In this document: piece after piece, positions 5,628-20,098 of the stretch
Numbering within the stretch: position 1 is the stretch's first letter
Layout: each line of letters opens with the position of its first letter
Source of the DNA: Rhodococcus sp. IITR03
GTDB taxonomy: Bacteria; Actinomycetota; Actinomycetes; Mycobacteriales; Mycobacteriaceae
Reading direction: 5' to 3'
NCBI GenBank assembly: GCA_001017865.1
Contig: LATQ01000129.1
Coordinates: 1 to 20,098, forward strand
DNA length: 20,098 nt
Notes under the pieces: generated by a model
Databases searched by the model: none
Seen by the model: the letters and a program-made list of their open reading frames with translations, nothing else
What the model was told of the DNA's origin: nothing
Translations under genes and position numbers: made by a program

Positions 5628-5665
5628 AGAGTCTCCTGGGTGCAGGTGCTTGAGAGAACTCGAAC

Positions 5666-5683
5666 TGTGAACTGAGAGTCACA
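5666..5683. promoter_or_regulatory. Operator A, TGTGA-N8-TCACA, upstream of the phosphotransferase gene
   Basis: On the minus strand it reads TGTGACTCTCAGTTCACA. Fourteen of its 18 positions equal operator D upstream of surE. It lies 39 bases before the ATG at 5627, directly after an AT-rich CATATTTT that could be the -10 box. A second palindrome-like stretch, TGTGGTCGATCACA, lies just upstream at 5690-5703. Part of a six-member motif family in this window. Confidence 0.65.
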
Positions 5684-5703
5684 AAATATGTGTGGTCGAT
5701 CAC

Positions 5704-6242
5704 ATTAGCCTCGGGCGGGGTGGGCGTCAACTGCCCGCCCCCTCTCGCTGTAGGTATCAGTCGCCCTGTTGGCAGTGGAGTACCTTGAGGCGAAGAGGCG
5801 CCCAAAAGGTTTCGAACAGCCAAGCTCTAGCTGCTGAGTAAGGTTGGGGCCGCAGTACGGCGGGGGTGACTCGCACGTGATCCTATGTGGACTAATCGAT
5901 GCTTTTATGCGAACATCCAGTCACTAAATATCGTGTAACCTTCCGCTCTGTCGTGAGATTGTGCTGCTGAAGGTGTGTAGTGCAGTTTGTTGCCGCGGCA
6001 CCGGTGCGCTGCACCGTTCTTCCGCGAGGCGAGTCGGTCTTTTGCCGCGGGACCAACCGCGATTTTTGGACGCTCAGTTGCGAAACATTCGTCGAGGAGG
6101 CAAGTGAGAGTGACTGGTTCTCGAGTGCAGACATCAGTGCTTGTGGGAGTCGAGCAGCTGTTCGGTGTTTTCGTGATGCGGGCCTTGTGCGCCGACCGGA
6201 CGAGTTGGGGGACATCTTTGTCGAGCCGATCAAAACAGGCAG
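5704..6242. other. Intergenic stretch, no recognised gene
   Basis: Between the promoter region of the minus-strand phosphotransferase gene and the decayed phosphotransferase on the plus strand. Open frames of 110-140 codons exist on both strands around 5890-6310 but none has a motif I recognise, and GC content and third-position bias are weaker than in the neighbouring genes. It is probably degenerate or non-coding. Confidence 0.5.
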
Positions 6243-6760
6243 ATGCCGACACTGTGCGCTGTCGGTTCCAGAACGCCGTGGCCTCCGCCCTATCGTCCTC
6301 GTGCGTCGTCAAGCTACCGATTCGTGAAGGGTAGACAGCCGAAACGGCCAGCCATGCAGCGGTGTATGAGCGTGAGCTGCGGTTCTACGAGAAGCTTCGT
6401 CCGGAGTTGCCTGGGCAGAGGTGCCCGAAGTTCTACGGTGCCTTCGATATCGGAGACCAACCTGCATTCGTTCTGGAGGATGTTCAGGGTGCTTCACAAG
6501 GTGACCAGATCATCGATGGCACGAGGAACCAAGCCGTCCTTGCGGTCACCCAACTGGCCAGACTTCAGGGCGCTGGTGGAACGACGACGGGTTCGGAGCG
6601 CAGCTGTGGCTGCAGCGATGTACCGGCGCCCTCATCCCCGATAGGCAACGCCGATACCTCGCCAGCTGGGAGGAGGTCAAGGACTGGGTGCTCGACGACC
6701 TCGTTCCCGGCGCCGTCGATGGACTTCACGGTCGAGGTCGAACCGCGGTCTGTGTTCCAG
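6243..6760 (+). pseudogene. Second phosphotransferase (APH-like), decayed
   Basis: Fragments of a kinase-like phosphotransferase in several plus-strand frames. An N-terminal piece ends SSCVVKLPIREG before TAG. The next frame gives TAETASHAAVYERELRFYEKL, then CPKFYGAFDIGDQPAFVLEDV (the hinge region of the fold) and VTQLARLQ. After a further shift near 6570 another frame reads WLQRCTGALIPDRQRRYLAS and SWEEVKDWVLDDLVPGAVDGL. The catalytic HGDxxxxN loop and the C-terminal third were not found. It is a different copy from the gene at 4540-5627. At least two frameshifts plus a missing C-terminus make this a true pseudogene rather than a sequencing artefact. Confidence 0.65.
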
Positions 6761-7090: not shown

Positions 7091-8128
7091 TCAGAACTCG
7101 ACTCGCAAACTGGCTGGTAGGCCTCGCCTGGCATCCGAGGATGTAACCGTCGGCGACGTCGTCGGGGTCGAGCGCTTCGGTGTTCCCCGGATTCACGGTG
7201 CCTTCGACGAGGGTGCAGGCACACGATCCGCATTCTCCTTCGCGGCAGGAATAGGGGCATCGATGCCGGCATTGACCATGACGTCGATCAAGGTGGCATC
7301 GGCGGGCCAGTTCAACGTGTGAGTATCTCCGTCGAGCGTGACGTCGACTGTGGAGGCGTTGGCGTCCGTGGTCGCCAGTTGTGCGATGGGAGCGAAGGGG
7401 TCGCCGTCGAGGGAGCGGAATTCCTCGATGTGGATGCTGTGTCGGTCGTATCCGCAGGTGACGAGTGTGTTCTTGACCAACGACATGAACGGGGCCGGAC
7501 CGCAGATGAATACCTCGCAGTCGACCGCGTCGGCGGCGAAGGACGCAATGCTGTCCTTGGTGGGCAGGCCGTGCTCGTCCTCAAGTCGGTGCTCGATGGT
7601 GAGGCGGTGCGGGTAGCGCTGTGCCAGTTCGGTCAATTCGGTGTCGAAGATGATCGAATCGCGGTCGCGGTTGGCGTAGTACAACGCGATTGTGCCGGTC
7701 GAGGTGGCCAGCGCGGACTTGAGGATCGACATCACCGGAGTGATTCCGCTGCCGGCTGCGAACAGCCGAAGGTGGCCGTCGAGCCGATCGGGTACGAACG
7801 TTCCGGAAGGGGGAAGCAGGTGGAGGGTGTCCCCGGCGGCGATGTGATCGCAGAGCCAGTTCGACCCGTAGCCGTCGGCGGTGCGTTTGACGGTGATCTT
7901 GATGTGTTCGTCGGTCGCGGGGGTGGTGGCGATCGAGTAACACCGCGCGACGGAACCGGTTCGCTCACTGGGAATACGGACGGTGACGAACTGCCCCGGC
8001 TTGTAGGTGAATCGTTCGGTCAGATCGGCCGGGACGTCCAGGACGAACGAACAGGCGTCGGATGTTTCCTGAATTACCTGTCGCACACCGACAGTGTGTC
8101 CGAGGAGTTGGGGGGCGAGAGAGGTCAT
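7091..8128 (-). pseudogene. KshB-type FAD/[2Fe-2S] ferredoxin reductase (frameshifted)
   Basis: Electron-transfer protein passing electrons from NAD(P)H through FAD to a C-terminal plant-type [2Fe-2S] cluster. Start ATG at 8128 has AAGGA upstream; the upstream ATG at 8149 lacks such a site. Restored length is 345 residues. Order: FAD domain with RCYSIATTP (62-70), NAD domain with AAGSGITPVMSIL (about 125-136) and CGPAPFM, then ferredoxin domain with CREGECGSCACTL and GYILGCQARPTS. Cluster ligands would be Cys295, 300, 303 and 333. One base is missing at about 7251 (before the first Cys) and one extra at about 7113 (AGCCAGT, expected AGCAGT), after which the natural end RVEF follows. Layout matches KshB/PaaE-type reductases. 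Last gene of the P450 operon, 46 bases after TetR; probably the redox partner of the P450. Confidence 0.85.
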
Positions 8129-8146
8129 GGTGGTTCCTTCGGCTGG

Positions 8147-8166
8147 CACTACCGCGGGAGGTAGTG
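8147..8166. promoter_or_regulatory. Inverted repeat between tetR-like gene and ferredoxin reductase
   Basis: Seven-base perfect arms CACTACC and GGTAGTG with a six-base spacer GCGGGA, in the gap between the TetR stop (8175) and the ferredoxin reductase start (8128). Its sequence differs from the TGTGA-type operators. It may be an operator, an attenuating hairpin or an mRNA-processing hairpin; nothing distinguishes these. Confidence 0.4.
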
Positions 8167-8174
8167 CTGTCGAG

Positions 8175-8852
8175 TTACGACTCGAGCGCGGCGGCGGAGC
8201 GCGAGTCGAGTTGGGTGTCCTTGATGGCGGGCGGTAGAGATCGGTACCAGAACTCGCCGAGCGCGCGGCCGAGTTCGTCGATACGTTCCCGTCGGGGTGT
8301 CGAGGCGGGAAGACCGACGTGGACGTAGGCCATCTGCTCGGTCATGCACCCCAAGGCTTCGGCCAGTAGATCGAAGTCGGTGTAACCGATCTCGCCATGA
8401 TCGTAGAGTCGCTGGAGCCAGCGCCGGGTACGAGCAACGAAGTCTCCGCGCAGTTGCAGCCACAGCTGTTGGAAACCCTCGTTGGCGCTGGCCGCGGCCG
8501 CTTCGCGCAACAAGCGCAGGATGTGCCGGTGGCGGGAGTAGGCGTGCAGGTACGTGATGTTGACGTCGATCAGGGCCTCGAGTTCGCCGCTGTTGTTGGT
8601 TCGCCGGGCGGTTGCTTCGGCAAGCTCCTGCAGACCGGTGTGCAACGCTGCCAGGAACACGTCGTCGAGGTCGTTGAAGTGTCGGTAGAAGTTGCCTTGT
8701 GCGGTCTTGGCGCGATGCGTGATGTCGGAAATGCGGGTACGGGTGTAGCCGTATTCGCTGAAGCACTCGACAGCCGCTTGCACGATGCGTTCGCGAGTGG
8801 CTTCACCGCGCTTGTTCGGCCTCTTGCCGCTGCTGATACCGCGGTCGGTCAA
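8175..8852 (-). CDS. TetR-family transcriptional regulator
   Basis: One-component regulator. The TetR DNA-binding domain is near the N-terminus: TRERIVQAAVECFSEYGYTR, then ISDITHRAKTAQGNFYRHF (helix-turn-helix about residues 19-63), followed by an all-helical ligand-binding domain of about 150 residues. The open frame starts at TTG 8852 (225 residues). A better start may be ATG at 8920, preceded by GAGGAAG: it gives MAATTPPGRSEPRTLTEP in a frame that joins this one if one base is restored at about 8855, where GGGGTT is a homopolymer context. That protein would have 248 residues. It lies inside the P450 operon between the PpdK-like and ferredoxin reductase genes. By position it is the best local candidate to bind the TGTGA-N8-TCRCA operators; that is inference. 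Confidence 0.85.
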   Translation of the reverse strand: MTDRGISSGKRPNKRGEATRERIVQAAVECFSEYGYTRTRISDITHRAKTAQGNFYRHFNDLDDVFLAALHTGLQELAEATARRTNNSGELEALIDVNITYLHAYSRHRHILRLLREAAAASANEGFQQLWLQLRGDFVARTRRWLQRLYDHGEIGYTDFDLLAEALGCMTEQMAYVHVGLPASTPRRERIDELGRALGEFWYRSLPPAIKDTQLDSRSAAALES

Positions 8853-9108
8853 CCCCGCGTGGGTGTAGGCTCGGTGAGTGTGCGTGGTTCGCTGCGGCCT
8901 GGCGGAGTGGTAGCGGCCATCGTTGCTTCCTCGTCTTCCCGATTATGAACAGGTCATCGCGTCTGTGATGGACCCGCGCGCAGATCCTAGGCGCGCTCCT
9001 GATGCGCGTTGGTCAAAGGGGCAAGTGGGTGTTCGGCTGGGACCGGGGTCGGCAAGTAACTCAACAGTTCGTCGAGATGCTCGTCTTGCGCGCCGGAGTG
9101 GTCGGTGT

Positions 9109-10497
9109 TCAGCGCGTCGCGTCGTAGACGGTCCCGGCGGTGCCGTCGACAGTGACCACGCGTCCGGCTAGGGCGGTCATCGTGCCTGCTCCGGCGCCGA
9201 CGACACACGGAAGACCGATCTCGCGGCACACCAGCGCTGCATGGGAGGTGCTGCCGCCGAGTTCGGTGACCACGGCGACGGACTCGAACATTGCGGGCAC
9301 GTCGTCGGGCGCTGTCGACGGCCGGACCAGCACAACCGGTGTGCCGGCTTCGGCGAGGGCGCGTGCTTGGTCGACATCGGTGACGGCCTGCCCCACCGCG
9401 GCACCCGGGCCCGCGCCGATACCGGATGCGAGTACCGGATGATGCTCGTGCACCCCGTGACTGTCGGCCAGCGCGGTTGCCTGCTCCGGCGAGATGCGGG
9501 CGAGGGCTTCGTTCGGTTCGATGATGCCTTCTCGTACCAGATCGACCGCGATACGCACAGCGGCGCGAGGAGAGCGCTTGCCGGCGCGGCACTGCAGGAC
9601 ATACAGGCGGCCACTTTCGACCGTGAATTCGATGTCCACCAGGTCACGGTGTTCTTGCTCGAGGATCGTCGCTACCTGCTCGAGTTGCGGATAGATCTCC
9701 GGCAGAATTTCGGAGACCGTGGGAAGCGGGGAGGGGGTCTTCTCGCCGGAGACGACGTCTTCGCCTTGTGCTCGGGTCAGCCACTCGCCGTAGAGCGTGT
9801 TCTCGCCGGTGGCGGGGTCGCGGCTGAACATCACGCCGGTGCCGGAGTGTTCGTCGCGATTGCCGAAGACCATCGCTTGTACCGTCACGGCGGTCCCCGC
9901 TCCGCTGCCGAGGTTGTGGCGGGCGCGGTAGGCCTTGACCCGGTCGTTGGTCCACGAGTCGAATACTGCCCCGATCGCGGCGCGCAGCTGTTCGAGTGGA
10001 TCGGTCGGTGGTTCGGCGGTGGGATCGCCGGCGACGATGGAGGCGTAACTGTGCCGGAAGCGCTGCCAGGTGTCGTCGGCCCACTGCTGGTCGCCGGTCT
10101 CGTCGGCAAGGACCCGGCAGAGCTCGGGGGTCAGGCCGAGGTTGAGGACGGTGTCCATCATGCCGGGCATGGACTGGGCAGCACCCGAGCGCACGGAGAC
10201 CAGCAGCGGCGACGGTCCCGCCCCGAAGGTACGTCCGGTGTCGGCTTCGAGTCGGCGCAACTGCTCGAGGACGTCCTGCCAGATCGATTCGGGCAGAGCC
10301 CGGCCGTTGTCGTGGTAGATCGCGCATACGTGGGTCGGCAGTGCAAAAGCGGGAGGAACCGGCAGCCCCATCGCTTGCATCTTGTTGACGCTGTATGCCT
10401 TGCCGCCGAGCACGTCTCGGCTACCGGGGAAGGTGCCGTCGAGGAAGATCACATCGGACACGGAAGTCACCGGTGAGGTCGGTGCGGAGGGAGTCAT
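9109..10497 (-). CDS. ppdK: Short PpdK-like protein: ATP-grasp plus phosphohistidine domain
   Basis: N-terminal two thirds of a pyruvate phosphate dikinase, 462 residues from ATG 10497, which overlaps the SDR stop by ATGA. The ATP-binding domain shows DVLGGKAYSVNKMQAMGLPV (28-47), LLVSVRSGAAQSMPGMMDTV (98-117), MVFGNRDEHSGTGVMFSRDP (209-228) and LYVLQCRAGKRS. The swivelling domain has TELGGSTSHAALVCREIGLP, with phospho-acceptor His419. The C-terminal PEP/pyruvate barrel of true PpdK (about 870 residues) is absent, as in the short PpdK of mycobacteria (about 490 residues). It therefore probably takes phosphate from ATP onto His419 and hands it to another acceptor or subunit. Beyond the TGA at 9109 a GC-rich frame continues to TAG at 8987 (LNTDHSGAQDEHLDELLSYL onward) if one base is restored at about 9112, giving 503 residues. 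Confidence 0.85.
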   Translation of the reverse strand: MTPSAPTSPVTSVSDVIFLDGTFPGSRDVLGGKAYSVNKMQAMGLPVPPAFALPTHVCAIYHDNGRALPESIWQDVLEQLRRLEADTGRTFGAGPSPLLVSVRSGAAQSMPGMMDTVLNLGLTPELCRVLADETGDQQWADDTWQRFRHSYASIVAGDPTAEPPTDPLEQLRAAIGAVFDSWTNDRVKAYRARHNLGSGAGTAVTVQAMVFGNRDEHSGTGVMFSRDPATGENTLYGEWLTRAQGEDVVSGEKTPSPLPTVSEILPEIYPQLEQVATILEQEHRDLVDIEFTVESGRLYVLQCRAGKRSPRAAVRIAVDLVREGIIEPNEALARISPEQATALADSHGVHEHHPVLASGIGAGPGAAVGQAVTDVDQARALAEAGTPVVLVRPSTAPDDVPAMFESVAVVTELGGSTSHAALVCREIGLPCVVGAGAGTMTALAGRVVTVDGTAGTVYDATR

Positions 10498-11285
10498 AGT
10501 GTGAGTCCTTCGAATACGGGGGAATTGGCGGCGGCGCGCGTGGCGTACAAGCCGCCTTCGACGGGGATGTCGATGCCGTTGAGCCAGGACGCGGCGGGGG
10601 AGAGCGCGAACGCGACGACGGCCGCGATCTCGTGCGGATATCCGTGTCGGCCCACGGCGGCCTGGGATCGTTGCATCGCTTCGGTGCCCATGCTGGCCTC
10701 GAAGTCGGCGAGGATGGGTGTTTCGACGGGGCCGGGGCTGACGGACAACGCGCGGATTCCGCGCCCGGTCAGCTTCGCGGCGAGAAGTTGGGTCCAGTTG
10801 ACGAGTGCGCGTTTGGAGGTGTCGTAGGCGGCGGGCCCGTCGAGCGGATGTGCGCGCAGCCAGTGCTCCAACGCTTCGGTGTCCCGTACTCGCAGGAGTT
10901 CGTCGATCGCTTCGGGGGATTGGGTATTGCGGTTGGCTGCAACCGAAGCGACGTTGACGACGGCGGAACCGCCGGTCATCCGCGGGAGCAGCGTCTCGGT
11001 CAATCGGCGGGCTCCGAGCAGATTGACTGCAAGTACCGTCTGCGCCGGGACGGTGCCGGGTACCCCTGCGACATTCGCCAGTGCTGCGATCGACGAGGGC
11101 AGTTCTGCTGCTGCGGCATCGATCGACGTCGGGTCGGAAAGATTGCACTCGACGGTGTGCACACCGTCGAGCGGGCAGCTACGCCGATCCAGCCCGATGA
11201 CCGGTGTGCCGGCCCGGTGCAGTTGTTCGGCCACGGCGAGACCGATCCCGGAGCCGGCTCCGGTGACGACGACGGGGGCGTTCAT
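10494..11285 (-). CDS. Short-chain dehydrogenase/reductase, 3-alpha-HSD/coniferyl-alcohol type
   Basis: Intact 263-residue Rossmann oxidoreductase. The cofactor motif TGAGSGIG is at 8-15, and Asp33 after the second strand favours NAD. NVAG is at 71-74, catalytic Ser114 is in VNVASVAA, and YDTSK gives Tyr154 and Lys158. About 40 residues lie between Ser and Tyr (RNTQSPEAIDELLRVRDTEA and beyond), longer than in most SDRs and typical of the branch with 3-alpha-hydroxysteroid and coniferyl-alcohol dehydrogenases. The expected reaction is oxidation of a primary or secondary alcohol. It starts at ATG 11285, overlapping the ALDH stop by ATGA, and its own stop overlaps the PpdK-like start in the same way, so all three should be translated together. 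In context it would turn a P450-made alcohol into the aldehyde for the ALDH. Confidence 0.85.
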   Translation of the reverse strand: MNAPVVVTGAGSGIGLAVAEQLHRAGTPVIGLDRRSCPLDGVHTVECNLSDPTSIDAAAAELPSSIAALANVAGVPGTVPAQTVLAVNLLGARRLTETLLPRMTGGSAVVNVASVAANRNTQSPEAIDELLRVRDTEALEHWLRAHPLDGPAAYDTSKRALVNWTQLLAAKLTGRGIRALSVSPGPVETPILADFEASMGTEAMQRSQAAVGRHGYPHEIAAVVAFALSPAASWLNGIDIPVEGGLYATRAAANSPVFEGLTL

Positions 11286-12712
11286 GCCATCACCGCCGTG
11301 ACGTCGGTGAACTCTTCGATTCCCAGGGCACCGAGTTCGCGGCCGTAGCCGGAGTTCTTGACGCCGCCGAACGGCACCGCAGGGCGTGTGCGGGTGCGCA
11401 CCCCGTTGATCTTGACCTGGCCGACGTCGAGGTGGTTCGCGACGGCGCGGGCCCGGTCGGTATCACCCGACCAGACTTCCGCGGACAGTCCGTAGGCGCT
11501 GTCGTTGGCGATCCGTACGGCGTCATCGATGTCGGTGTAGGTCTGCAGTGCGATCACGGGACCGAAGATCTCCTCTCGGACGGCCCGGGCGTTCTCGTCC
11601 AGTCCGGTGATGACGGTCGGCTCGACGAAGAAACCGGTGGCCGATCCGTCGTAGGGCTTGCCCGTCCCGGTGAGCAGTTCTCCGCCTGCGTCGACAGCGC
11701 CAGCGACGTAGTCGAGGACTCGGTCTCGCTGGCGGGCGGAGGCCAGTGGTCCTTGCTTGGTCGTCGGATCGGTGGGATCGCCGAGGGTGTGCTCGGCGAC
11801 CGCAGCGCGGATGAGGTCGGTGACCTCGGCGACCAGAGACTGCGGCACCAGCAGACGTGTGGGGGCATTGCAGGCCTGACCGGAGTTGACCAGACCGGAA
11901 GCGATGGCGCTCGGAATGGCGGTGTCGAGGTCTGCATCCGGCAGGATCACGGCGGGGGACTTGCCGCCGAGTTCCAAGGTGCAGCGGGTCAACGCCTGCC
12001 CGGCGAGCGCGGCGACGGCGCGGCCGGCGGTGACGCTGCCGGTGAACGACATGTGTGCCAGGGTGTCGTGTCCGGCCAGCGCCGCCCCGGTGGTCGGACC
12101 GACGCCGGTGACGAGGTTGAACGCGCCGGCGGGTAGTCCCGCCTCGAGGAACAGTCCCGCCAGCATCTCGGCGTCGTAGGGAGTCATCTCCGATGCCTTG
12201 AGTACCACGGTCGAACCGGCGGCCAGGGCGGCGGACACTTTGGCGACGATCTGGTGGACGGGCATGTTCCACGGGGTGATGGCGCCGACGACGCCGCTGC
12301 CGCGGCGCAGCAGGGCGGCGCCGTCGATGTCGGTGTTCCAGTCGAGGGTGCGTGCTGCTCGGGCGGTCGCGCGCAGCACCGCGGCCGGCAATTCCGCCTG
12401 TGTGGCGCGTGCCAGAGAGATCGGCATGCCCATCTCCCGGGTCACCACCGCGGCGATCGTCTCTCCGTCGCGTTCGAGCAGGTCTGCAGTCCGTTCGAGG
12501 ACGGCAGCGCGTTCGTCGACGTCGGTGCGGCACCACAACCGGTGCGCCGATTGAGCAGAGCGCACCGCGGAGTCCACGAGTTCGGCGCCGGCATCGGCGA
12601 CCTGTCCGATGGTCGTCTCGGTGAAGGGGTCGATCACCTCGACCACTGGTCCTGGGGGAGTGGACCAGTGACCGTCGATCAGGCAGCGGGCAGGGGCGAA
12701 TGTGTCAGCCAT
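11282..12712 (-). CDS. NAD(P)-dependent aldehyde dehydrogenase
   Basis: Intact 476-residue member of the ALDH superfamily, oxidising an aldehyde to its acid. The oxyanion-site PWNMP has Asn149. The cofactor-binding stretch has VVLKASEMTPYDAEMLAGLF and FTGSVTAGR. The general base is Glu247 in TLELGGKSP and the nucleophile is Cys281 in NSGQACNAPTRLLVP. The C-terminus has EEIFGPVIALQTY and PFGGVKNSGYGRELG. Length and motifs are complete. Start ATG 12712 overlaps the P450 stop by 8 nt (ATGGCTGA). Its place between a P450 and an alcohol-dehydrogenase-like SDR, and the CoA ligase divergent from the operon, suggest a linear alcohol - aldehyde - acid - CoA-ester sequence. The substrate cannot be read from sequence. 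Confidence 0.9.
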   Translation of the reverse strand: MADTFAPARCLIDGHWSTPPGPVVEVIDPFTETTIGQVADAGAELVDSAVRSAQSAHRLWCRTDVDERAAVLERTADLLERDGETIAAVVTREMGMPISLARATQAELPAAVLRATARAARTLDWNTDIDGAALLRRGSGVVGAITPWNMPVHQIVAKVSAALAAGSTVVLKASEMTPYDAEMLAGLFLEAGLPAGAFNLVTGVGPTTGAALAGHDTLAHMSFTGSVTAGRAVAALAGQALTRCTLELGGKSPAVILPDADLDTAIPSAIASGLVNSGQACNAPTRLLVPQSLVAEVTDLIRAAVAEHTLGDPTDPTTKQGPLASARQRDRVLDYVAGAVDAGGELLTGTGKPYDGSATGFFVEPTVITGLDENARAVREEIFGPVIALQTYTDIDDAVRIANDSAYGLSAEVWSGDTDRARAVANHLDVGQVKINGVRTRTRPAVPFGGVKNSGYGRELGALGIEEFTDVTAVMA

Positions 12713-13906
12713 GGGTCTGCTCCAGGGTTACCGGCAGGGTCTTGATGCCCCGGAAGAAGTTGCTCTGCAGCCGCTTCGGCTCGCCGACCACCGAGATGTC
12801 GATGCCGCGCTCGACGAGTTTGGTGAAGAACAGCTTGGCTTCCAGGCGGGCGAGGTTCGCGCCGAGGCAGGCATGTTCACCCCAGCCGAATCCCACGTGT
12901 TCGTTGGGGAATCGGTCCGGTCGAAAGATATGAGGATCGTCGAAGGCGCGTTCGTCGCGGTTGGCCGAGCAGAACCACATGACGACCTTGTCGCCGGCTT
13001 TGATGGTCTTGCCGTGCATCTCGACGTCCCGGGTAGCGGTGCGGCGCATCGACAGGACCGGGGAGACCCAGCGCACCATCTCCTCGACAGCGGTACGGAC
13101 CTTGCCGGGGTTTTCCCGGAGCATCTGCCACCACTGGGGGTTCTCGTGCAACGCGAGCACGCCACCGGAGAGCAGATTGCGGGTGGTTTCGTTGCCGGCG
13201 ACCATCAGGATGAGGTAGTAGGCGTCGAGGTAGCCGCGGAGAGGGGAACGCCGTCGATCTCGGCGGCGGTCAGGATGCTGACCAGGTCATCGGCGGGGCA
13301 GGCTCGGCGTTGTTGCTCGAGGCCGCGGAAGTAGGTGAAGACCTCGTCGCGGGCGCGCACCGCCGTCTCGGGGCCTTCGGAATAGTCGGGGTCTTCCGAG
13401 GCCATCTGGTTGGTCCAGCGCAGCAGGTGCGGGCAGTCCTCGAGGGGGGCGCCGAGCAGGCGGCCGATCATCACCAGTGGGAGCTGGGAGGAGATTTCGG
13501 CGACGAAGTCGAGCGGGCCTGCGCCGATGGTCTTGTCGAGCAATTCGTCGATGACGGCTTCGATGTCCGGGGTCAGGTTCTTGACCTTGGCCGGGCGTAC
13601 CGAGGGGGTGACGATCTTGCGCAATGGCCCGTGTTCCGGGGGGTCGACGTGGTGAATGCTGCGCGCGCCCTCGCCTTCGGCCCGGCGACTGGCGATTTGG
13701 GTGCCTTCGGTGACGGTGAAGGTGGCGTAATCGGAGGCGACGGCCTTGACATCGGCATAGCGGGTGACAGACCAGAAGCCGGGACCGTCCGGTTCGGTGT
13801 TCCAGTGCAGCGGATCGTGGTCGCGGAGGTCTTTGAAGATCTCGTCGGCGTATCCGGTTGCGAAAGGATGCAGGTTCATCAAGTCGATGTCGCTGCTGGT
13901 GGTCAT
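12705..13906 (-). pseudogene. Cytochrome P450 (frameshifted)
   Basis: Soluble bacterial P450 monooxygenase, 400 residues when one base is restored. Start ATG 13906 has GGGAGG six bases upstream. Seen: SIHHVDPPEHGPLRKIVTPS (helix C region), the I-helix oxygen-activation motif MVAGNETT (about 235-242), the E-x-x-R pair Glu276/Arg279 in EEMVRW, and the heme loop FGWGEHACLG with Cys347 as thiolate ligand. The lesion is at about 13234: the frame breaks after PLSA, and GYLDAYYLIL continues in the next frame, so GCGGCTAC stands for GCGGGCTAC. By general look it resembles the CYP125/CYP142/CYP111 group (sterol side chain, linalool), which hydroxylates terminal methyl groups. It is first in the operon with ALDH, SDR, PpdK-like, TetR and ferredoxin reductase. 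No separate ferredoxin gene is visible. Confidence 0.85.
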
Positions 13907-13939
13907 GTGGATACCTCCCGTGGCCGAGGTCACGCGGTT

Positions 13940-13957
13940 TGTGACGACAACGTCACT
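13940..13957. promoter_or_regulatory. Operator B, TGTGA-N8-TCACT, upstream of the P450 operon
   Basis: Plus strand reads TGTGACGACAACGTCACT; the core GTGACG-ACAA-CGTCAC is a perfect palindrome with six-base arms. It lies 34-51 bases before the P450 ATG. On the minus strand it directly follows a TTTAGT stretch that may be the -10 box. Confidence 0.6.
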
Positions 13958-13978
13958 AAACCACAAGTTGAGTGGTTT
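13958..13978. promoter_or_regulatory. Inverted repeat AAACCAC-N7-GTGGTTT in the divergent promoter region
   Basis: Perfect seven-base arms with spacer AAGTTGA, immediately next to operator B in the 151-base gap between the divergent P450 and acyl-CoA ligase genes. It differs from the TGTGA motif, so it could bind a second regulator; no family is suggested by the sequence. Confidence 0.45.
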
Positions 13979-14028
13979 GAGAACACCCCTTGTAAGACTA
14001 TGAATCCGCTTGTAGCCTGAACTCGATA

Positions 14029-14046
14029 TGTGACGGATCGTTCGCA
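14029..14046. promoter_or_regulatory. Operator C, TGTGA-N8-TCGCA, upstream of the acyl-CoA ligase
   Basis: Reads TGTGACGGATCGTTCGCA, ending 11 bases before the GTG start. It overlaps the end of a possible -10 box (CGATAT at 14024-14029), the same placement as in operators E and F. Binding here would block transcription start, and possibly ribosome access. Confidence 0.6.
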
Positions 14047-14057
14047 AAAGAGGTGCC

Positions 14058-15564
14058 GTGTATCCACCCACCATCGCAGCCGACCACCCCGACTCGCTCG
14101 CCTTCGTCATGGCGGGCTCGGGAGCGTCACTGACGTACCGCCAGCTCGACGAACAATCCAACCAGCTCGCCCACCTGTTGCGCACGCGCGGTGTGCGCAC
14201 CGGGGACAGCATCGTGCTCATGATGGAGAACCGCATCGAATGGCCCGTCGTCGTGGCCGCCGGGATGCGCTCCGGACTGTTCGTGACCCCGGTCAACTGG
14301 CATCTGACCGCAGACGAGCTGGCGGCCATCCTCGTGGAGGCTGCGCCGGCGGCAGTGGTCACCAGTGCGATGCTCGCGGACACCGTGGCCACCGCATTGC
14401 CCGAGGGGCACGACACGCTGGTGCTGTGTACCGACTCCGGCACCGACTTCGACCACTTGGCCGCAGCGCTCGCCGAACAGCCACGCACTCCTATCGCCGA
14501 CGAGCGTTTCGGTGCGCGGGTGCTCTACAGCGGTGGCACCACCGGTCGACCCAAGGCGTTTCGGCAGAAGCTCCTCGATGTCCATCCCTCCCAGGCCCCG
14601 GTGCGGCACGCGGGGCTTGCTGCCGAGTTGGGTATCGGCGGCACGACGGTCCTGCTCTCACCCGCACCCAACTATCACGCCGCCCCTTTCACCTTCCAGC
14701 TGATGACCATGCTGCCGGTGGAACGGTCGTGTGCATGGAGCGGTTCGATCCCGCGGCCGCACTGGAGGCCATCAGGGTGCACAGAGTCACCCACTCGCAA
14801 TGGGTCCCGACCATGCTGCTGCGCATGCTGCGCCTGCCCGACCGGGACTCGATCGAACTTTCACCCACTCATACCACGGCGGTCACCTCCGGCGCCCCCT
14901 GCCCGGTGGACGTCAAAGACCGGATCAACCAGTGGTGGGGACCGATCCTGCACGAGTACTACGGCGCTTCCGAGGGCTACGGGCACACCTACATCTCCGC
15001 TCGGGAATCCGCCGAGCGCCCGGGCTCTGTCGGCCGTCCCCTCGGTGGGACCAAGGTTCACATCACCGACGAGGAGGGAAACCCGCTCGCACCCCATGAA
15101 ATCGGACGCGTCTGGTTCGAACCGCCGACATCGAATGCCTACGTCAACGACCGGGACGCAACCGCGCCCAGTACCTGGAAGAGCATGGGCGATCGGGGGT
15201 ACCTCGACGAGGACGGATATCTCTACCTCGTGGGCCGTGAGAGTTTCATGATCATCTCCGGCGGGGTCAACATCTACCCCGAAGAGGTCGAAGAGGCGCT
15301 CTTGCGTCACCCCGCAGTCGCCGACGCAGCGGTGTTCGGCATTCCGGACCCGGAATTCGGCGAACAGGTCAAGGCCGTGGTGGAGTTGCACGAGAACGTG
15401 CCTGCGGACGACGACACCACCGCGGCCTGATCGACCACTGCAAGGCTGTGCTGGCAACCTACAAGGCACCGAAGTCGATCGACTTCGTCGACGACCTTCC
15501 CCGCCTTCCGACAGGAAAACTCAACAAGAAGGCACTTCGCTCGCCGTATCTGGTCGGTTCTTAA
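14058..15564 (+). pseudogene. Acyl-CoA synthetase/ligase, AMP-forming (two frameshifts)
   Basis: ANL-superfamily ligase activating a carboxylic acid through an acyl-adenylate to its CoA ester. Start GTG 14058 follows AGAGG. Restored length is 502 residues. Motifs in order: TYRQLDEQSNQLAH; the P-loop-like YSGGTTGRPK at about 157; EYYGASEGYGHTYIS (A5); MGDRGYLDEDGYLYLVGR (A7); SGGVNIYPEEVE (A8); and YKAPKSIDFV with LPTGKLNKKAL, whose PTGK lysine is the adenylation catalyst. One base is missing at about 14714 (CTGCCG, expected CTGGCCG) and one at about 15427 (GCGGCCTG, expected GCGGCCCTG). The last 45 residues, with the catalytic lysine, are therefore cut off as sequenced. Divergent from the P450 operon and 58 bases ahead of the winged-helix gene. 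It probably activates the acid made by the ALDH. Confidence 0.85.
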
Positions 15565-15622
15565 GTCACCGAGTCGTATTGTGCCGACCGGCCACCCCCC
15601 GATGATCAACAGGAGCTTCGAG

Positions 15623-16255
15623 ATGGTCCACACCCAACATCAGCCGTCGACGTTCGACATCGTTCACTCGCTGCGCGTGAAAGGGCTGGCCAGCGACGCT
15701 GTTCTCAGTGCTCTGTCCGGGGCGCCCGTGAACGATCTGCCGGAGTTGGTGACGCCCCTGGTCGAACAGGGGCTCGTCGTGCGCAGGGAAGGTCGCATGG
15801 CCGGTTCGATGCTCACGCCCGCCGGTAAGGAAGAACATCGCCGGCTCCTCGCCGAGAACGACGAAACCCGTTCGGCGGCGGGTGCCCTCGACGAGTTCTA
15901 CACCGCCTTCCTGCCGATCAATTCCGAGTTCAAGCAAGTGTGCCAGCGCTGGCAGATGCGCAGTGACGACCAGCCCAACGATCACACCGACCCGGCATAC
16001 GACGCGCAGATCATCGATCAGCTCGCCACCACCGATGCCGCGCTGCGTCCGCCGCTGCAGCAACTGGCGGAATCACTGCCCCGGTTCGGTCGGTACCTGC
16101 CGCGGCTGTCCGCTGCCCTCGAGCGGATCCGGGGTGGGGACAACGCCGCGTTCGCCCGCCCGCTCTACGACAGCTACCACGACATCTGGATGGAACTGCA
16201 CGAAGATCTCATCTTGAGCTCGGGTCGCGTCCGCGGTGCGGCAGACGAAGCCTGA
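15623..16255 (+). CDS. Winged-helix protein of unknown function
   Basis: Intact, 210 residues from ATG 15623 (AGGAG eight bases upstream); earlier in-frame ATGs at 15581 and 15602 lack such a site. The N-terminal 70 residues look like a MarR-type winged helix: FDIVHSLRVKGLASDAVLSA, then ELVTPLVEQGLVVRREGR and SMLTPAGKEEH. The C-terminal part is all-helical with acidic and aromatic positions (FLPINSEFKQVCQRWQMRSD, then DSYHDIWMELHEDLI). I do not recognise a named family. The LRVKG and LTPAG pattern recalls small modules found next to, or fused with, short PpdK-like proteins in actinobacteria; this is memory, not a search. It follows the CoA ligase and ends at a strong terminator. It could be a DNA-binding regulator or an accessory subunit of the phosphotransfer system. 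Confidence 0.7.
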   Translation: MVHTQHQPSTFDIVHSLRVKGLASDAVLSALSGAPVNDLPELVTPLVEQGLVVRREGRMAGSMLTPAGKEEHRRLLAENDETRSAAGALDEFYTAFLPINSEFKQVCQRWQMRSDDQPNDHTDPAYDAQIIDQLATTDAALRPPLQQLAESLPRFGRYLPRLSAALERIRGGDNAAFARPLYDSYHDIWMELHEDLILSSGRVRGAADEA

Positions 16256-16269
16256 GCTGCTACGACCAG

Positions 16270-16307
16270 GGTGCGGGGTCGGTCCGGCAAGGGACCGACC
16301 CCGCACC
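16270..16307. terminator. Strong terminator hairpin after the winged-helix gene
   Basis: Sixteen-base perfect arms: 16270-16285 reads GGTGCGGGGTCGGTCC, the six-base loop is GGCAAG, and 16292-16307 is the exact complement, followed by TTCTCGTT. It starts 15 bases after the TGA at 16255, between convergent genes, and may work in both directions. Confidence 0.85.
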
Positions 16308-16346
16308 TTCTCGTTCGCCGAAGGCAAGTGGTCTCCAGGACCGGTC

Positions 16347-16382
16347 TGCCGACCACGTACGTCGTGTCGTATGTGGTCGGCA
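16347..16382. terminator. Second hairpin between convergent genes
   Basis: Fifteen-base arms with one mismatch: TGCCGACCACGTACG (16347-16361) and CGTATGTGGTCGGCA (16368-16382), with loop TCGTGT. It lies about 85 bases beyond the surE stop on the minus strand and is the likely terminator for surE. Confidence 0.65.
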
Positions 16383-16465
16383 CGGCAGGGGGCGCTGCTG
16401 GCTGCGGGCGCCACGCCGGGCCGGCCTTCCGGCAGGCGACCTGCCCGGCGCGCCGAGCGCACCGA

Positions 16466-17251
16466 TCAGATCTCGACTGCCGAGGCGATGGGCAAACCTG
16501 CTTCGAGATAGTCGGCGACATCCGGAATCGGCTCGCGCACATCGATTGTCCCGAGGGCACTGACCGCGACGTAACCGTCCCGGACCAATGCGGAATCGGT
16601 AGTCGTCCCCAGCCGTTCGGTATTGGCGTAGCGCAACAGTCGGATCGACTCCGGTCCCTTGTCGAAGGACAGGCCGAGAAGACCTCGTGAGGCCAGGGGA
16701 GCCATTCGCACGCCCTTCACCTCGCTGAGGTCGACATCCGGCACGTTGATGTTGAGTACGGTCCGCGGCGCGCTGCGATCGACCATCCATCGCACCGCTT
16801 CTGCCGCGATCGTCGCTGCGGTGTCGAAGCGGTGGTCGGGGGGAAACCCGCAGCTGACCGCAAGGCCGCGCACGTTGAACCCTGCTGCGCTCAGCGCCGA
16901 GGCCACCGTGCTCGAATACATGATCATCTTGCCCGTGTTGTGACCGGGATTGATTCCGCTGACGACCAGTTCCGGCGGCGGTCCGAAGATCCCGGCGCAG
17001 GCGCAGAACACAGCGAAGGCCGGAGGCGCCTCGAGGCTGATCGCCGGCACATTCGGTAGCGCAGCGAAGCTGCGTTGGGTGTAGGCGATCTCAGCGCCGT
17101 GTTCGAGTGTCCCGAGCGACGAACCGCTTCCGCTGTACTCCACGTCCGGCGCCGCAATCATCAGTTCGTGTCCGTCCGCGGCGAGGGCCTGAGCCAGCGC
17201 ATGCAACCCCGGCGCATCGATCCCATCATCGTTGGTCACCAAAATGCGCAT
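16466..17251 (-). CDS. surE: SurE-family 5'-nucleotidase/phosphatase
   Basis: Intact, 261 residues from ATG 17251, which has AAGGAG eight bases upstream; the longer frame to 17281 lacks a comparable site. SurE proteins are divalent-metal phosphomonoesterases acting on nucleoside monophosphates and other phosphoesters. The metal site is clear in MRILVTNDDGIDAPGL (Asp8, Asp9), followed by APDVEYSGSGSSLG (metal-binding Ser) and VVSGINPGHNTG with its Asn; SSTVASALSA completes the family signature. Bacterial surE usually sits beside pcm, nlpD or rpoS. Here it is alone, convergent to a catabolic operon and divergent from a PEP-utilising enzyme, behind a copy of the shared operator. That suggests a specialised phosphatase for a phosphorylated pathway intermediate rather than a housekeeping role. 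The family call is firm; the role is inference. Confidence 0.9.
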   Translation of the reverse strand: MRILVTNDDGIDAPGLHALAQALAADGHELMIAAPDVEYSGSGSSLGTLEHGAEIAYTQRSFAALPNVPAISLEAPPAFAVFCACAGIFGPPPELVVSGINPGHNTGKMIMYSSTVASALSAAGFNVRGLAVSCGFPPDHRFDTAATIAAEAVRWMVDRSAPRTVLNINVPDVDLSEVKGVRMAPLASRGLLGLSFDKGPESIRLLRYANTERLGTTTDSALVRDGYVAVSALGTIDVREPIPDVADYLEAGLPIASAVEI

Positions 17252-17313
17252 CCGAGCGCTCTCCTTCCCGCCGACCTCCACGCTCGGACGTCAGCAATCA
17301 GCACTGTCTAGAT

Positions 17314-17331
17314 TGTGACTGACCATTCACA
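17314..17331. promoter_or_regulatory. Operator D, TGTGA-N8-TCACA, upstream of surE
   Basis: Plus strand reads TGTGACTGACCATTCACA, with perfect five-base outer arms. It is located 63-80 bases before the surE ATG in the 376-base region between surE and the divergent PEP-utilising gene. Confidence 0.65.
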
Positions 17332-17505
17332 CTTTTGTCCATACCCGCTCAACCGGAACGGTTCGATGCTGCTGCAGAACGATGTGCGCATACTGAGCTC
17401 CTCGGATGTGAAATACGGGACGAATACGGCTCATGGCGCTTCCAGTTGCGGGCGTCCACGCCAGGTGGAACCGCATCGGCCTCTACGGTCGCGACATCTA
17501 ACGTC
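17332..17505. other. Middle of the divergent promoter region
   Basis: No gene recognised between operators D and E. A small palindrome AACCG-GAA-CGGTT lies near 17350. A short plus-strand frame (GCEIRDEYGSWRFQLRAST) looks weakly protein-like but is not supported. Confidence 0.4.
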
Positions 17506-17534
17506 TTGACATCGTGATTCGACTCACATAAGAA
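17506..17534 (+). promoter_or_regulatory. Promoter of the PEP-utilising gene
   Basis: TTGACA (17506-17511), a 17-base spacer, then TAAGAA (17529-17534), a good sigma-70-type pair. The spacer and -10 box also carry CGTGA-N6-TCACA and TCACAT-AAGA-ATGTGA, so the promoter is packed with overlapping palindromes. Confidence 0.65.
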
Positions 17535-17552
17535 TGTGAATACTGAGTCGCT
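17535..17552. promoter_or_regulatory. Operator E, TGTGA-N8-TCGCT, at the start of the PEP-utilising transcript
   Basis: Reads TGTGAATACTGAGTCGCT and begins one base after the -10 box, so a bound protein would cover the transcription start. It is the weakest match in its right arm, but its placement is the same as operator F. Confidence 0.6.
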
Positions 17553-17627
17553 AATAAGTTGAGATCGGCACGAGTGCCGACGCTGGTCGAACCCTCCCAA
17601 CACTCCTGTCCTGGAAGAAGGAATCGC

Positions 17628-19367
17628 ATGGCTGAGTGGCCCGTCAACGACACCGTCTCGAAGGTGTTCCCGCTGTACTCGCGAGCAACGTGGGCGAGAT
17701 CTTTCCCGACCCCATCAGCCCGCTCAATGCCTCGGCAGGCTTCCAGCACAACCTCGAACCCGGATGGCGCGATGCCTTCGTCGCATGCCGGGTGTGGAAT
17801 CACGATCTCTACGACGCCACCGTGGACAAGAACATCCTCCCGGCCTTCGGCAGCTACCTCTACATCAACATGTCGCTCATGCGCCTGTTCGGTGTCCGCG
17901 TACCCGGCATGTCCCCCGAATCCGTCGACCTGCAGTACTTCGGAGACATGCCCGGTATCCCCAGCTACGACAGCGAAAAACGTGATTTCGACCAGGATCC
18001 CGCTTTCGAGGAGACGGCCGGCGCCTGGCTGCTCGAAGAGGTGATCGGGGCAACCGGCCTCCCCGCATACGACGCAGACCGCGACGAGGTCCTCAAGCTC
18101 CGTGCCGAACGCCCGGACATGACGACCCTGAGCGATCAGCAGCTGCGCGAGCGCATCTGCTCGTTCAATCCTCTCCTGCGACGACTGTTCAAGCACCACA
18201 TCGAGGCCAGCCTCAAATCGGGCGTCGGCCTGGGGGCGATCGCCCAGGTCGCCGCGGAGCTCGGCAAGCCCGAACTCGCCCTCACCCTGGTCAGTGGCAT
18301 CGGCGATGTCGACTCGACAGTCCCCTCCCAGCGCATGTGGACCCTCAGCCGCACCGCCCAGGAACCCGAAGTCGCTGCACTGTTCGACCAGGGCATCGAC
18401 GGGCTCTACCAGCGGTTGACGGACAACAACGACCCGGTCGTCGCTGCCTTCCGCTCCGACCTCGACGACTTCCTGGCCGACTGGGACTTCCGCGGCCCGG
18501 CCGAGTGGGAGATCCGGGCCCAGACCTGGGGCGTCAAACCGGAACTGGCACTGGGCACCATCGACCGGATGCGCCGGGTCGACGATGCCGAAGCCCCCGA
18601 CGGCAAGAACACGATTCGAGCCCAGGAACGCGAGACCGCGGCGGCTGCGATCCGCGAGGTCCTGTCCGCCGACCCCGAGGCGTCGGTGCAGTTCGAGGCG
18701 ACCCTCAACGCCGCTGCCCTCTGGCAGCGCGGACGCGAACGCGCACGCACACAGCGGCCATGGTGATCCACGAGATTCGCCTTCCCGCACGGGAGCTGGG
18801 TCGACGGGGAGTCGAATCAGGAGCGCTCGACAGCATCGAACAGATCTTCATGCTTTTCGCGGACGAACTCGATGACTATCTGGGCGATCCCACCCGATTC
18901 ACCGACATCGTGCGTGAACGCGAACGCAGCTATCTGGAGCTGTTCGACTTCAAGCCTCCCTTCGTCGTGGCCGGGGACGTGCCGGCGCTCGACACCTGGG
19001 AGCGGCGCTCTGCAGCCACGAGTACCGCAGTGACGGTGGGGGAGACGATCACCGGCGTCTCCGGTTGCACCGGTACCGTACGGGGTCGTGCCCGCGTGTT
19101 GACCACACCCGACGATCCGTCCGCACTCGAGCCCGGTGAGATTCTCGTCGCTCCGATCACCGATCCGTCCTGGACTCCGCTGTTCGTCGCCGCCTCGGCA
19201 GTGGTCGTCGACGTGGGAGCCCCGTTCTCGCATGCAGCGATCGTCAGTCGCGAAATCGGCATCCCATGCGTCGTCTCGGCGACCGATGCGACCAAACGTA
19301 TCCCCGACGGTGCCTGATCGAAGTCGACGGCGCGACCGGTGTGGTGACCGTTCTCGATCTCGACTGA
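17628..19367 (+). pseudogene. PEP-utilising phosphotransferase subunit: substrate domain plus phosphohistidine domain (three frameshifts)
   Basis: Start ATG 17628 follows GAAGAAGGA. Restored length is 580 residues. The first 460 or so have no ATP-grasp and contain SKVFPLYSRANVGEIFPDPI, SPLNASAGFQHNLEPGWRDA and MHEVR-like MVIHEIRLPARELGRRGVES, resembling the substrate-binding middle domain of rifampin-phosphotransferase-like enzymes. The end is a swivelling phosphohistidine domain: VVVDVGAPFSHAAIVSREIG with His536, then a natural tail LIEVDGATGVVTVLDLD. A nucleotide-binding partner is needed; the PpdK-like protein of the P450 operon has one. This split recalls phenylphosphate synthase and the CreH/CreI pair for 4-cresol. 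One base is missing at about 17685 (GAGCAACG), 18745 and 19312 (GGTGCCTGA, expected GGTGCCCTGA). The ATG at 18761 is not taken as a separate start because the domain runs across it. Confidence 0.75.
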
Positions 19368-19373
19368 CCATCG

Positions 19374-19411
19374 TTCGGGTGGGTCGGCGAGGAATCGTCG
19401 GCCCACCCGAA
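19374..19411. terminator. Terminator hairpin after the PEP-utilising gene
   Basis: Arms TTCGGGTGGG (19374-19383) and CCCACCCGAA (19402-19411) match perfectly; the inner part extends pairing with one mismatch. It starts seven bases beyond the restored stop codon (19365-19367) and is followed by AAACGACTTTT. Its position supports 19367 as the true gene end. Confidence 0.75.
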
Positions 19412-19539
19412 AACGACTTTTCGAAGACTGTCGTACATGCTCGCCTCGCCGTGGCCGCTTCGGTCACGCGCCTTGGCATGTCCGAAAGGTGTTGAAAAGA
19501 CGGTGAATCGGTGGAAAATCGCGAATGTCGCCGCGAACC
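19412..19539. other. Intergenic stretch upstream of the HpaB-family promoter
   Basis: No gene, RNA or repeat recognised; short open frames on both strands lack motifs. With the promoter and leader it makes a gap of about 400 bases between genes. Confidence 0.45.
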
Positions 19540-19568
19540 TTGACACCTCGGACGGCACCCCGCATTAT
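19540..19568 (+). promoter_or_regulatory. Promoter of the HpaB-family gene
   Basis: TTGACA (19540-19545), a 17-base spacer, then CATTAT (19563-19568). This would give a leader of roughly 200 bases before the GTG at 19774. I saw no clear riboswitch fold in that leader. Confidence 0.65.
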
Positions 19569-19585
19569 GTGAACGGGAAGTCGCA
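19568..19585. promoter_or_regulatory. Operator F, TGTGA-N8-TCGCA, at the start of the HpaB-family transcript
   Basis: Reads TGTGAACGGGAAGTCGCA and starts at the last base of the -10 box, nearly the same geometry as operator E. This links the right-edge gene to the regulon. Confidence 0.6.
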
Positions 19586-19773
19586 AAATCGTCTTTGTGC
19601 CGGATCTGGCTCCGAACCTCCAGTCTCGCCGATGTAAATCATTGCGCTGCTCCAACTCCGATTTCTCAGCCAGGATCGGGCGCGACGCAGCCCGCCCGAC
19701 GGCCCCAGACACTCATCCCCGTTCGTACGCCCTGTCGTGTCGTGTCGTACATCTTTTCTCTAGGAGGAAACTC

Positions 19774-20098
19774 GTGGCCATCCGCTCCTCGGACGAATAC
19801 CGCAAGGGCCTGTCGGATAACCGACGCGTCTTCTATCGCGGCACGCAGATCGCCGACGTCACGACGCACCCGGAACTGGCCTTAGCGATCGAGCACTCGG
19901 CGATCTGCTTCGATATCGCCGCCGACCGTCCCGACCTGGCCGTCACCGAGGTCGACGGCGAGGCGGTCAGTACCTTCTACATCGCCCCCACCACCGCAGA
20001 CGATCTCGTGCGCCGCGGCACCCTGATCGAAGAAGTCTCCCGCCGCGGCGGCGGCACCATCGTGCTCAAGGAGGTCGGCAGCGACGCACTGTTCGCGC
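19774..20098 (+). CDS. HpaB-family flavin-dependent hydroxylase, N-terminus (cut by window edge)
   Basis: The first 108 residues are visible; the frame is open at the window end. Start GTG 19774 has a perfect AGGAGG seven bases upstream. The sequence MAIRSSDEYRKGLSDNRRVF is followed by YRGTQIADVTTHPELALAIE and then VDGEAVSTFYIAPTTADDLV. The pattern of a Y-x-x-x-L segment, R-x-V-[FY]-x-x-G and DVTTHP is that of the HpaB N-terminal domain, shared by FADH2-dependent 4-hydroxyphenylacetate 3-monooxygenase-type enzymes and 4-hydroxybutyryl-CoA dehydratase-type enzymes. Which of the two cannot be told from the N-terminus. The monooxygenase type would need a flavin reductase, perhaps encoded beyond the edge. 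The leader carries operator F, so it belongs to the same regulon. Confidence 0.7.
   Translation, partial: MAIRSSDEYRKGLSDNRRVFYRGTQIADVTTHPELALAIEHSAICFDIAADRPDLAVTEVDGEAVSTFYIAPTTADDLVRRGTLIEEVSRRGGGTIVLKEVGSDALFA

Follow-up and report, generated by a model that had tools for sequence, protein, structure and literature searches.

Does the contig LATQ01000129.1 of Rhodococcus sp. IITR03 encode a single pathway in which a substrate is phosphorylated, oxidised while it carries the phosphate, and then dephosphorylated? This stretch (the window; 20,098 nucleotides) was proposed in an initial annotation of positions 7091–20098 to hold a split ATP-dependent kinase, a cytochrome P450 with a reductase, a short-chain dehydrogenase/reductase (SDR), an aldehyde dehydrogenase (ALDH), a coenzyme A (CoA) ligase and a SurE phosphatase, and all of these are present. 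We give a probability of roughly 0.6 to the reading that they form a dedicated catabolic regulon using phosphate as a removable handle. The genes, the operator, their co-conservation, the predicted folds and the conserved histidines were computed directly.

Frame translation and comparison with a relative gave the gene order as LLM-class oxidoreductase, EcKL/APH kinase, a remnant of a second APH-like kinase (APH2), FAD/2Fe-2S reductase, TetR, truncated PPDK, SDR, ALDH and P450; on the right, the CoA ligase gene and a gene for a 210-residue protein, annotated MarR in a relative, diverge from the P450 gene, followed by surE divergent from the gene of the phosphoenolpyruvate (PEP)-utilising subunit (PEPut), and then by an HpaB-like gene. 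The best plasmid-collection record was plasmid pA of Rhodococcus pyridinivorans P23 (80.2% identity over 91% of the query), in which the core genes are annotated whole. Relative to P23 proteins, seven window genes (LLM, APH, APH2, reductase, P450, CoA ligase and PEPut) change frame, which may reflect sequencing indels or decay; TetR, PPDK, SDR, ALDH, the 'MarR' gene and surE match in a single frame. Because of these frame changes, the cluster anatomy was taken mostly from relatives, chiefly P23.

A local operator and a co-conserved gene set

The element TGYGA-N8-TCRC-NAA occurs exactly six times in the window against 0.01 expected, and none of 100 shuffled sequences reached six. The exact sites, all on the forward strand, lie immediately upstream of the EcKL/APH gene (5666–5685), on the side of the APH2 remnant (5908–5927), twice between the P450 and CoA ligase genes (13940–13959 and 14029–14048), before PEPut (17535–17554) and before the HpaB-like gene (19568–19587); a reverse-strand site with one mismatch precedes surE (17312–17331). 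When up to two mismatches were allowed, the excess was weak (28 sites against 18.0 expected, a count reached by 4 of 100 shuffles). The family extends outside 7091–20098, as the sites at 5666 and 5908 also take in the EcKL/APH–LLM pair (3491–5651), and the HpaB-like gene, from 19774 to the window end, is likewise covered.

In relatives, with the window excluded and genes included if their match reached ≥45% identity and began within 40 residues, the exact core TGYGA-N8-TCRC was present upstream of surE in 22/22 cases, PEPut in 29/33, the CoA ligase in 23/26 and the P450 in 20/26, where 0.2 to 1.0 were expected. These counts are not independent, because P450 and CoA ligase, like surE and PEPut, share intergenic regions. 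The core is rare upstream of ALDH (0/22), SDR (0/25), 'MarR' (1/21), the FNR-type reductase (1/14) and PPDK (1/21), and it precedes APH in three of eight relatives, two of these three exact sites resembling PEPut coding sequence. With one mismatch allowed, the low-count genes stay at or near chance, except for APH (7/8 against 2.7 expected) and TetR (11/23 against 7.8). Conservation in relatives thus bears out the suggestion that one operator family links the genes. Across 13 cluster-bearing genomes, 31 of 32 genome-wide matches to a stricter form of the operator fall at the cluster (a reversed control pattern gives 6), and on the P23 plasmid all seven matches lie inside its two cluster copies (control pattern 0). 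Since the matches sit at the cluster, the regulon looks local and dedicated. The regulator acting through the shared operator is most likely the TetR-family protein (8202–8906, reverse strand, one frame), although we infer both its identity and its sign.

To map the distribution, 25 aligned PEPut proteins served as the query of a scan, which returned 32 loci from Rhodococcus, Rhodococcoides, Nocardia, Gordonia, Aldersonia, Nocardioides, Kribbia, Microbacterium, Pseudonocardia, Prauserella, Actinomycetospora and some metagenome-assembled genomes. Among the 25 loci with at least 9.9 kb of left flank, and with matches taken at ≥38% identity, PPDK, CoA ligase and 'MarR' were found in all 25, P450 and SDR in 24, ALDH in 21, TetR in 20, SurE in 18, FNR and LLM in 13 each and APH in 8; PPDK and P450 occur together in 24. 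APH and LLM are undercounted because the loci were picked by their left flank and both genes often lie on the right, and FNR and TetR fall near or beyond the end of some stretches. L026, whose PPDK figure may be a swivel-domain cross-match, is not one of the 25 loci, and no PPDK appears in its gene listing. The pairwise divergence of each of seven partners tracks that of PEPut (r from 0.60 to 0.94; 0/999 permutations as high), a correlation that also reflects shared host descent. The kinase subunits, P450, SDR, ALDH and CoA ligase are kept together across genera, in keeping with the single regulon first proposed. PEPut was found (E 1e-150) in 5 of the 151 genomes sampled from the family of genome G001, G001 included, indicating that the cluster is accessory. 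Separately, Rhodococcus sp. ZPP plasmid pRZP2 (L034) carries a PEPut paralogue of 38% identity near a histidine phosphatase, an APH-family gene and acyl-CoA dehydrogenases.

A putative three-part kinase

The ATP-grasp partner is encoded at 9121–10506 (reverse strand) and consists of PPDK_N and a PEP-utilizers domain, that is, an ATP-grasp domain and a swivel domain with its catalytic histidine, and lacks the PEP-binding domain. Its P23 homologue scores above the cut-off of NCBIfam PRK05878 (603.5 against 456), a model that we take to cover Rv1127c. Homologue sets were drawn at ≥38% identity over 60% of length (24 PPDK, 28 PEPut, 22 SurE and 27 P450 sequences); the PPDK alignment itself holds 11 sequences, with L004, L007, L009, L013, L014 and others left out. 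Of the 24 PPDK sequences, 23 have the swivel histidine, and the remaining one ends short of it. A model of the window PPDK (mean pLDDT 84.1) matched a PPDK at TMq 0.80; the match to HpeI (9goj) was much weaker than those to true PPDKs (Foldseek E 1.9e-10, TMq 0.36; sequence E 6.6e-4). Judged by whole-sequence and fold matches, the subunit is thus not a bare ATP-grasp protein closer to PEP synthase, its nearest sequences and folds being PPDKs, and it is PPDK/VadK-like rather than HpeI-like. The ATP-grasp motif of phenolic dikinases is described as nearer to that of PEP synthase than to that of PPDK (PMC12167813); the PPDK system differs from HpeHI in that HpeI has no swivel and the phenolic-dikinase motif resembles PEP synthase.

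PEPut (17628–19367, forward strand, with frame changes in the window copy) combines an RPH-like substrate-binding domain with a C-terminal swivel carrying the catalytic histidine, a layout that it shares with the corresponding subunit of two-component small-molecule dikinases (HpeHI, CreHI and PpsAB). The P23 model (mean pLDDT 72.8; poor at residues 1–29, 59–78 and 92–120) matches rifampin phosphotransferase (RPH) over the rifampin-binding and swivel domains at about 20% identity. RPH is a single chain, whereas in the present system a PPDK-type protein of its own supplies the ATP-grasp part. The swivel His536 is present in all 28 PEPut sequences, and conserved histidines in both swivels would allow, without proving, a His-to-His relay.

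Comparison among relatives further suggests a third component, absent from the initial annotation: the 210-residue winged helix-turn-helix (wHTH)-like protein at 15623–16255 (forward strand). The P23 protein has no Pfam match; its wHTH-like N-terminus is reflected in weak Pfam matches of two distant relatives, and among 120 homologues listed one has MarR Pfam domains and one PF02082. When the reading frames of 17 loci were searched with a profile built from 28 family members, the protein turned up adjacent to PPDK both in Diaphorobacter (L048; E 3.9e-49) and, on P23 pA, in a third PPDK system (L046; E 1.9e-33). In Rhodococcus sp. LW-XY12 (L041; E 2.8e-41) it was part of a fusion with an AMP ligase. 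The second P23 copy and L032 also matched, a second L048 match was weak and in an unrelated-looking frame (E 0.006), and the remaining loci gave no match. Searching the database with the fused region retrieved 10 proteins, eight with PPDK domains as the fusion partner and two with an AMP ligase, one of the latter being almost the query sequence. Among 78 genomes from the genus of a Nocardia nova genome (G002), the fused protein has matches at E 1e-120 in 43, with alignment over almost the whole fusion at 28 places. A tyrosine-phosphatase-family match stands beside the fusion in all 10 fused loci fetched, and among eight extended loci an AMP-ligase match is nearby in seven and a PEPut-like gene in two. 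The fused PPDK–wHTH loci of this genus are L053–L070. Given that relatives adjoin PPDK or are fused to AMP ligase and PPDK, reading the gene as a plain regulator was dropped and is kept as a rival below. The kinase thus looks three-part: truncated PPDK, RPH-like PEPut and the 210-residue protein.

Two further loci show other arrangements. On the Diaphorobacter plasmid (L048), PEPut, the 210-residue protein and PPDK are consecutive and adjoin ring-hydroxylating dioxygenase genes. On P23 pA (L046:20530–22169 and 26494–28791), PF00391 swivel domains lie on proteins of 148 and 238 residues, each followed by a larger protein without a Pfam match, with PPDK, biotin carboxylase, thiolase and tyrosine-phosphatase-family genes as neighbours; there, the swivel and the substrate-binding part may each be carried by a protein of its own.

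The proposed phosphate-handle pathway and its alternatives

The SurE-family phosphatase (16469–17251, reverse strand) retains N7, D8, D9, G10, S40, G41, N101 and N105 (P23 numbering) in 22/22 homologues. The P23 protein scores above the Pfam SurE cut-off (153.4 against 22.1) and below that of TIGR00087, the 5'/3'-nucleotidase SurE equivalog (122.9 against 135.1 bits). By tblastn (E 1e-5), 31 of the 32 loci contain a phosphatase match: SurE occurs in 21, seven have both types, and 10 of the 11 SurE-less loci have a histidine-phosphatase match (38 to 100% identity to the queries), leaving L021, a short contig, with neither. The histidine phosphatase of L009, which sits between the 'MarR' and CoA ligase genes, was also identified by Pfam (PF00300); the others rest on tblastn. 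Five adjoining stretches from five of the same genomes (L036–L040, 77 kb) gave no SurE, histidine phosphatase or tyrosine-phosphatase-family match. The exchange of SurE for an unrelated histidine phosphatase argues that dephosphorylation is needed, strengthening the phosphatase role first assigned to SurE; this replacement is the strongest inferential support that we have, and makes dephosphorylation the best-supported of the putative steps.

The oxidative part would begin with the P450 (12708–13906, reverse strand, one frame change). Its P23 homologue is closest to CYP125MRCA chains, by name an ancestral reconstruction, and then to CYP125, CYP124, CYP126 and CYP268, these being the best among 60 of 599 solved-structure matches. 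Members of these four families have branched lipids or sterol side chains as substrates. By sequence kinship, the P450 hints at a branched alkyl or isoprenoid group and the kinase at a phenol, so that the substrate may be an alkylphenol, a steroid or a terpenoid alcohol. The remaining enzymes are a FAD/NAD/2Fe-2S oxidoreductase (7113–8128, reverse strand, one frame change; domains from the P23 homologue), which is PaaE-like but under the cut-off of that model, an SDR alcohol dehydrogenase (10497–11285, reverse strand; coniferyl-alcohol dehydrogenase subfamily by its P23 homologue), an ALDH (11285–12712, reverse strand) and an AMP-forming acyl-CoA ligase (14058–15561, forward strand, two frame changes), for whose P23 homologue FadD4 is the closest NCBIfam model, under cut-off.

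These genes fit a working model by analogy with the Cre system of Corynebacterium glutamicum, in which 4-cresol is reportedly phosphorylated, oxidised on its methyl group by a P450, dephosphorylated and oxidised to the acid. As in our locus, one Cre cluster holds kinase subunits, a P450 with redox partners, a phosphohydrolase and alcohol and aldehyde dehydrogenases (PMC7764795; PMC8796525). In contrast, the present regulon has a PPDK-type ATP-grasp subunit with a swivel, an extra 210-residue component, SurE or a histidine phosphatase, a CYP125-like P450, and a one-piece FAD/2Fe-2S reductase where Cre uses the CreE reductase and CreF ferredoxin (PMC9549646). It also has a CoA ligase in 25/25 loci; none is among the cre genes of the PMC7764795 table, which covers only indole-changed genes. 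The Hpe system of Rhodococcus rhodochrous GD02 (HpeHI, HpeCBA, HpeD and HpeE) is outlined as phosphorylating, modifying, dephosphorylating and CoA-ligating its substrate (PMC9618137), but with a carboxylase instead of a P450 and with HpeI as a bare ATP-grasp domain. The Cre-like phosphotransferase of the initial annotation therefore survives in part: its subunits are present, but they are not a CreHI/HpeHI-type pair, because the ATP-grasp subunit is of the PPDK type and itself carries a swivel histidine, and because a third protein apparently takes part. Probably, then, the phosphate-handle logic is shared with Cre and Hpe and the kinase is different and three-part.

For the steps themselves, we infer every enzyme activity, their order and the substrate class. 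The truncated PPDK would charge its own swivel histidine from ATP, and the phosphoryl group would reach the PEPut swivel histidine either by relay or through PEPut visiting the ATP-grasp domain directly, with the 210-residue protein as a putative third kinase component. PEPut would then use it to phosphorylate the hydroxyl group of a compound bound in its RPH-like pocket, a hydrophobic alcohol or a phenol. The P450, probably with electrons from the FAD/2Fe-2S reductase, would hydroxylate an alkyl group, SDR and ALDH would oxidise the product to an acid, SurE, or elsewhere a histidine phosphatase, would take the phosphate off, and the CoA ligase would activate the acid, all under a regulator, most likely TetR, working through the common operator.

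Several observations weigh against this scheme. ALDH is missing from L020, L024, L028 and L032, and L032 also lacks P450 and SDR. The exact operator core precedes TetR in only 3/23 relatives and LLM in 0/16; no site of this pattern was found ahead of the window TetR gene, and the upstream counts lend no clear support to TetR self-regulation. The 'MarR' profile found nothing in L034, L026, L030, L042 and L047, and six of the eight extended fused-PPDK loci have no PEPut within about 8–10 kb. The distant PPDK/PEPut clusters L041 and L048 have no SurE, histidine phosphatase or tyrosine-phosphatase-family match in the 21 and 13 kb fetched. Finally, an Arg-rich B-C loop of the P450, considered as a phosphate anchor, was rejected since CYP125 has arginines in the aligned stretch.

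The lack of any direct sign of phosphate binding by the P450, given that loop alignment, would suit an alternative that we consider unlikely, namely that phosphorylation is a trap for scavenging or detoxification, from which the phosphatase releases the compound for the P450 to use in free form. A trapping role was suggested by the HpeHI authors (PMC12167813), but the joint occurrence of PPDK and P450 in nearly all loci, in units sharing their operator with PEPut, fits, without proving, ordered use. It is more improbable that the P450 acts before the kinases, with elimination of a phosphoester dehydrating the molecule as proposed for 25-hydroxysteroid kinase. An EcKL/APH kinase does lie inside the regulon, and kin of 25-hydroxysteroid kinase are counted among putative actinobacterial phosphotransferases (PMC8449060); yet a phosphatase would be pointless if the phosphate were eliminated, and phosphatase matches are almost universal among the loci.

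The least probable alternative takes the truncated PPDK for a VadK-like regulatory histidine kinase that controls a DNA-binding 'MarR' protein, PEPut being a separate enzyme. VadK (Rv1127c) shares the two-domain truncated PPDK architecture, the likeness being one of architecture, autophosphorylates on His422 and is proposed as an enzyme regulator, described for the methylcitrate cycle (PMC13400623); the present protein differs in standing beside a phosphotransferase subunit. The 'MarR' protein has a wHTH-like N-terminus and is found fused to PPDK. However, the P23 cluster shows no other ATP-grasp kinase subunit able to serve PEPut. Furthermore, nine of the 12 residues invariant in seven 'MarR' members (F96, N100, W110, Q111, N119, H121, D123, D127 and A165) fall C-terminal to the wHTH-like part, and the protein is fused to AMP ligases too. 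We continue to favour the phosphate-handle regulon.

Accessory genes and wider implications

The left part of the regulon comprises an LLM-class F420-dependent oxidoreductase gene (3491–4520, reverse strand, three frames; TIGR03857-like by NCBIfam of the P23 homologue), the EcKL/APH-family kinase gene (4552–5651, reverse strand, two frames) and the broken APH2 remnant (6245–6741, forward strand), whose homologue is whole in P23 and was assigned by Pfam there. Degraded transposase-like remnants at 341–2434 were read by eye with no database search, and the corresponding side in P23 also has insertion sequence genes. At the other end, the HpaB-like flavoprotein gene (19774–20098, forward strand) is an accessory member cut by the window end. 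We rejected it as proof of a phenolic substrate: the P23 homologue scores 179 bits against vinylacetyl-CoA isomerase and 144 bits against HpaB, and alignments read by eye show neither the Fe-S cysteines that are functional in the former family nor the Arg/Tyr pair that is functional in the latter. The HpaB-like family, seen in the window and at L045:3850–5247, apparently lacks monooxygenase and Fe-S dehydratase residues; matches also occur in L011, L019, L021 (an end fragment), L022, L023, L028, L046 and L047. A second core copy on P23 pA, at about 31.8–49.9 kb, includes an HpaB-like gene and a PEPut of 81% identity. It is flanked by acyl-CoA carboxylases, and the R. koreensis cluster by a Baeyer–Villiger monooxygenase-like protein and flavin oxidases. 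Flanking genes were rejected as a guide to the substrate, as they differ between genomes and settle nothing.

We did not recognise this combination as described in a literature search at the level of titles and abstract openings, with subscription journals mostly uncovered. Tentatively, and with somewhat less confidence than even odds, the kinase may belong to a second class of small-molecule dikinases, in which a self-phosphorylating PPDK-derived donor, an adaptor (the 'MarR' protein) replacing the lost PEP-binding domain and interchangeable substrate-binding swivel acceptors would operate by His-His relay. Such a class would occur in actinobacteria and in at least one beta-proteobacterium and serve the catabolism of hydrophobic alcohols or phenols by phosphate-handle chemistry, with SurE, histidine phosphatase and the tyrosine-phosphatase family as exchangeable phosphatases. 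If the proposed reading is true, the few known cases of phosphate-first catabolism would become instances of a more widespread strategy that can be recognised from its genes. The truncated PPDK family would gain a concrete partner, a regulator annotation would be corrected, and the cluster-specific operator would offer a means of identifying the inducing substrate.

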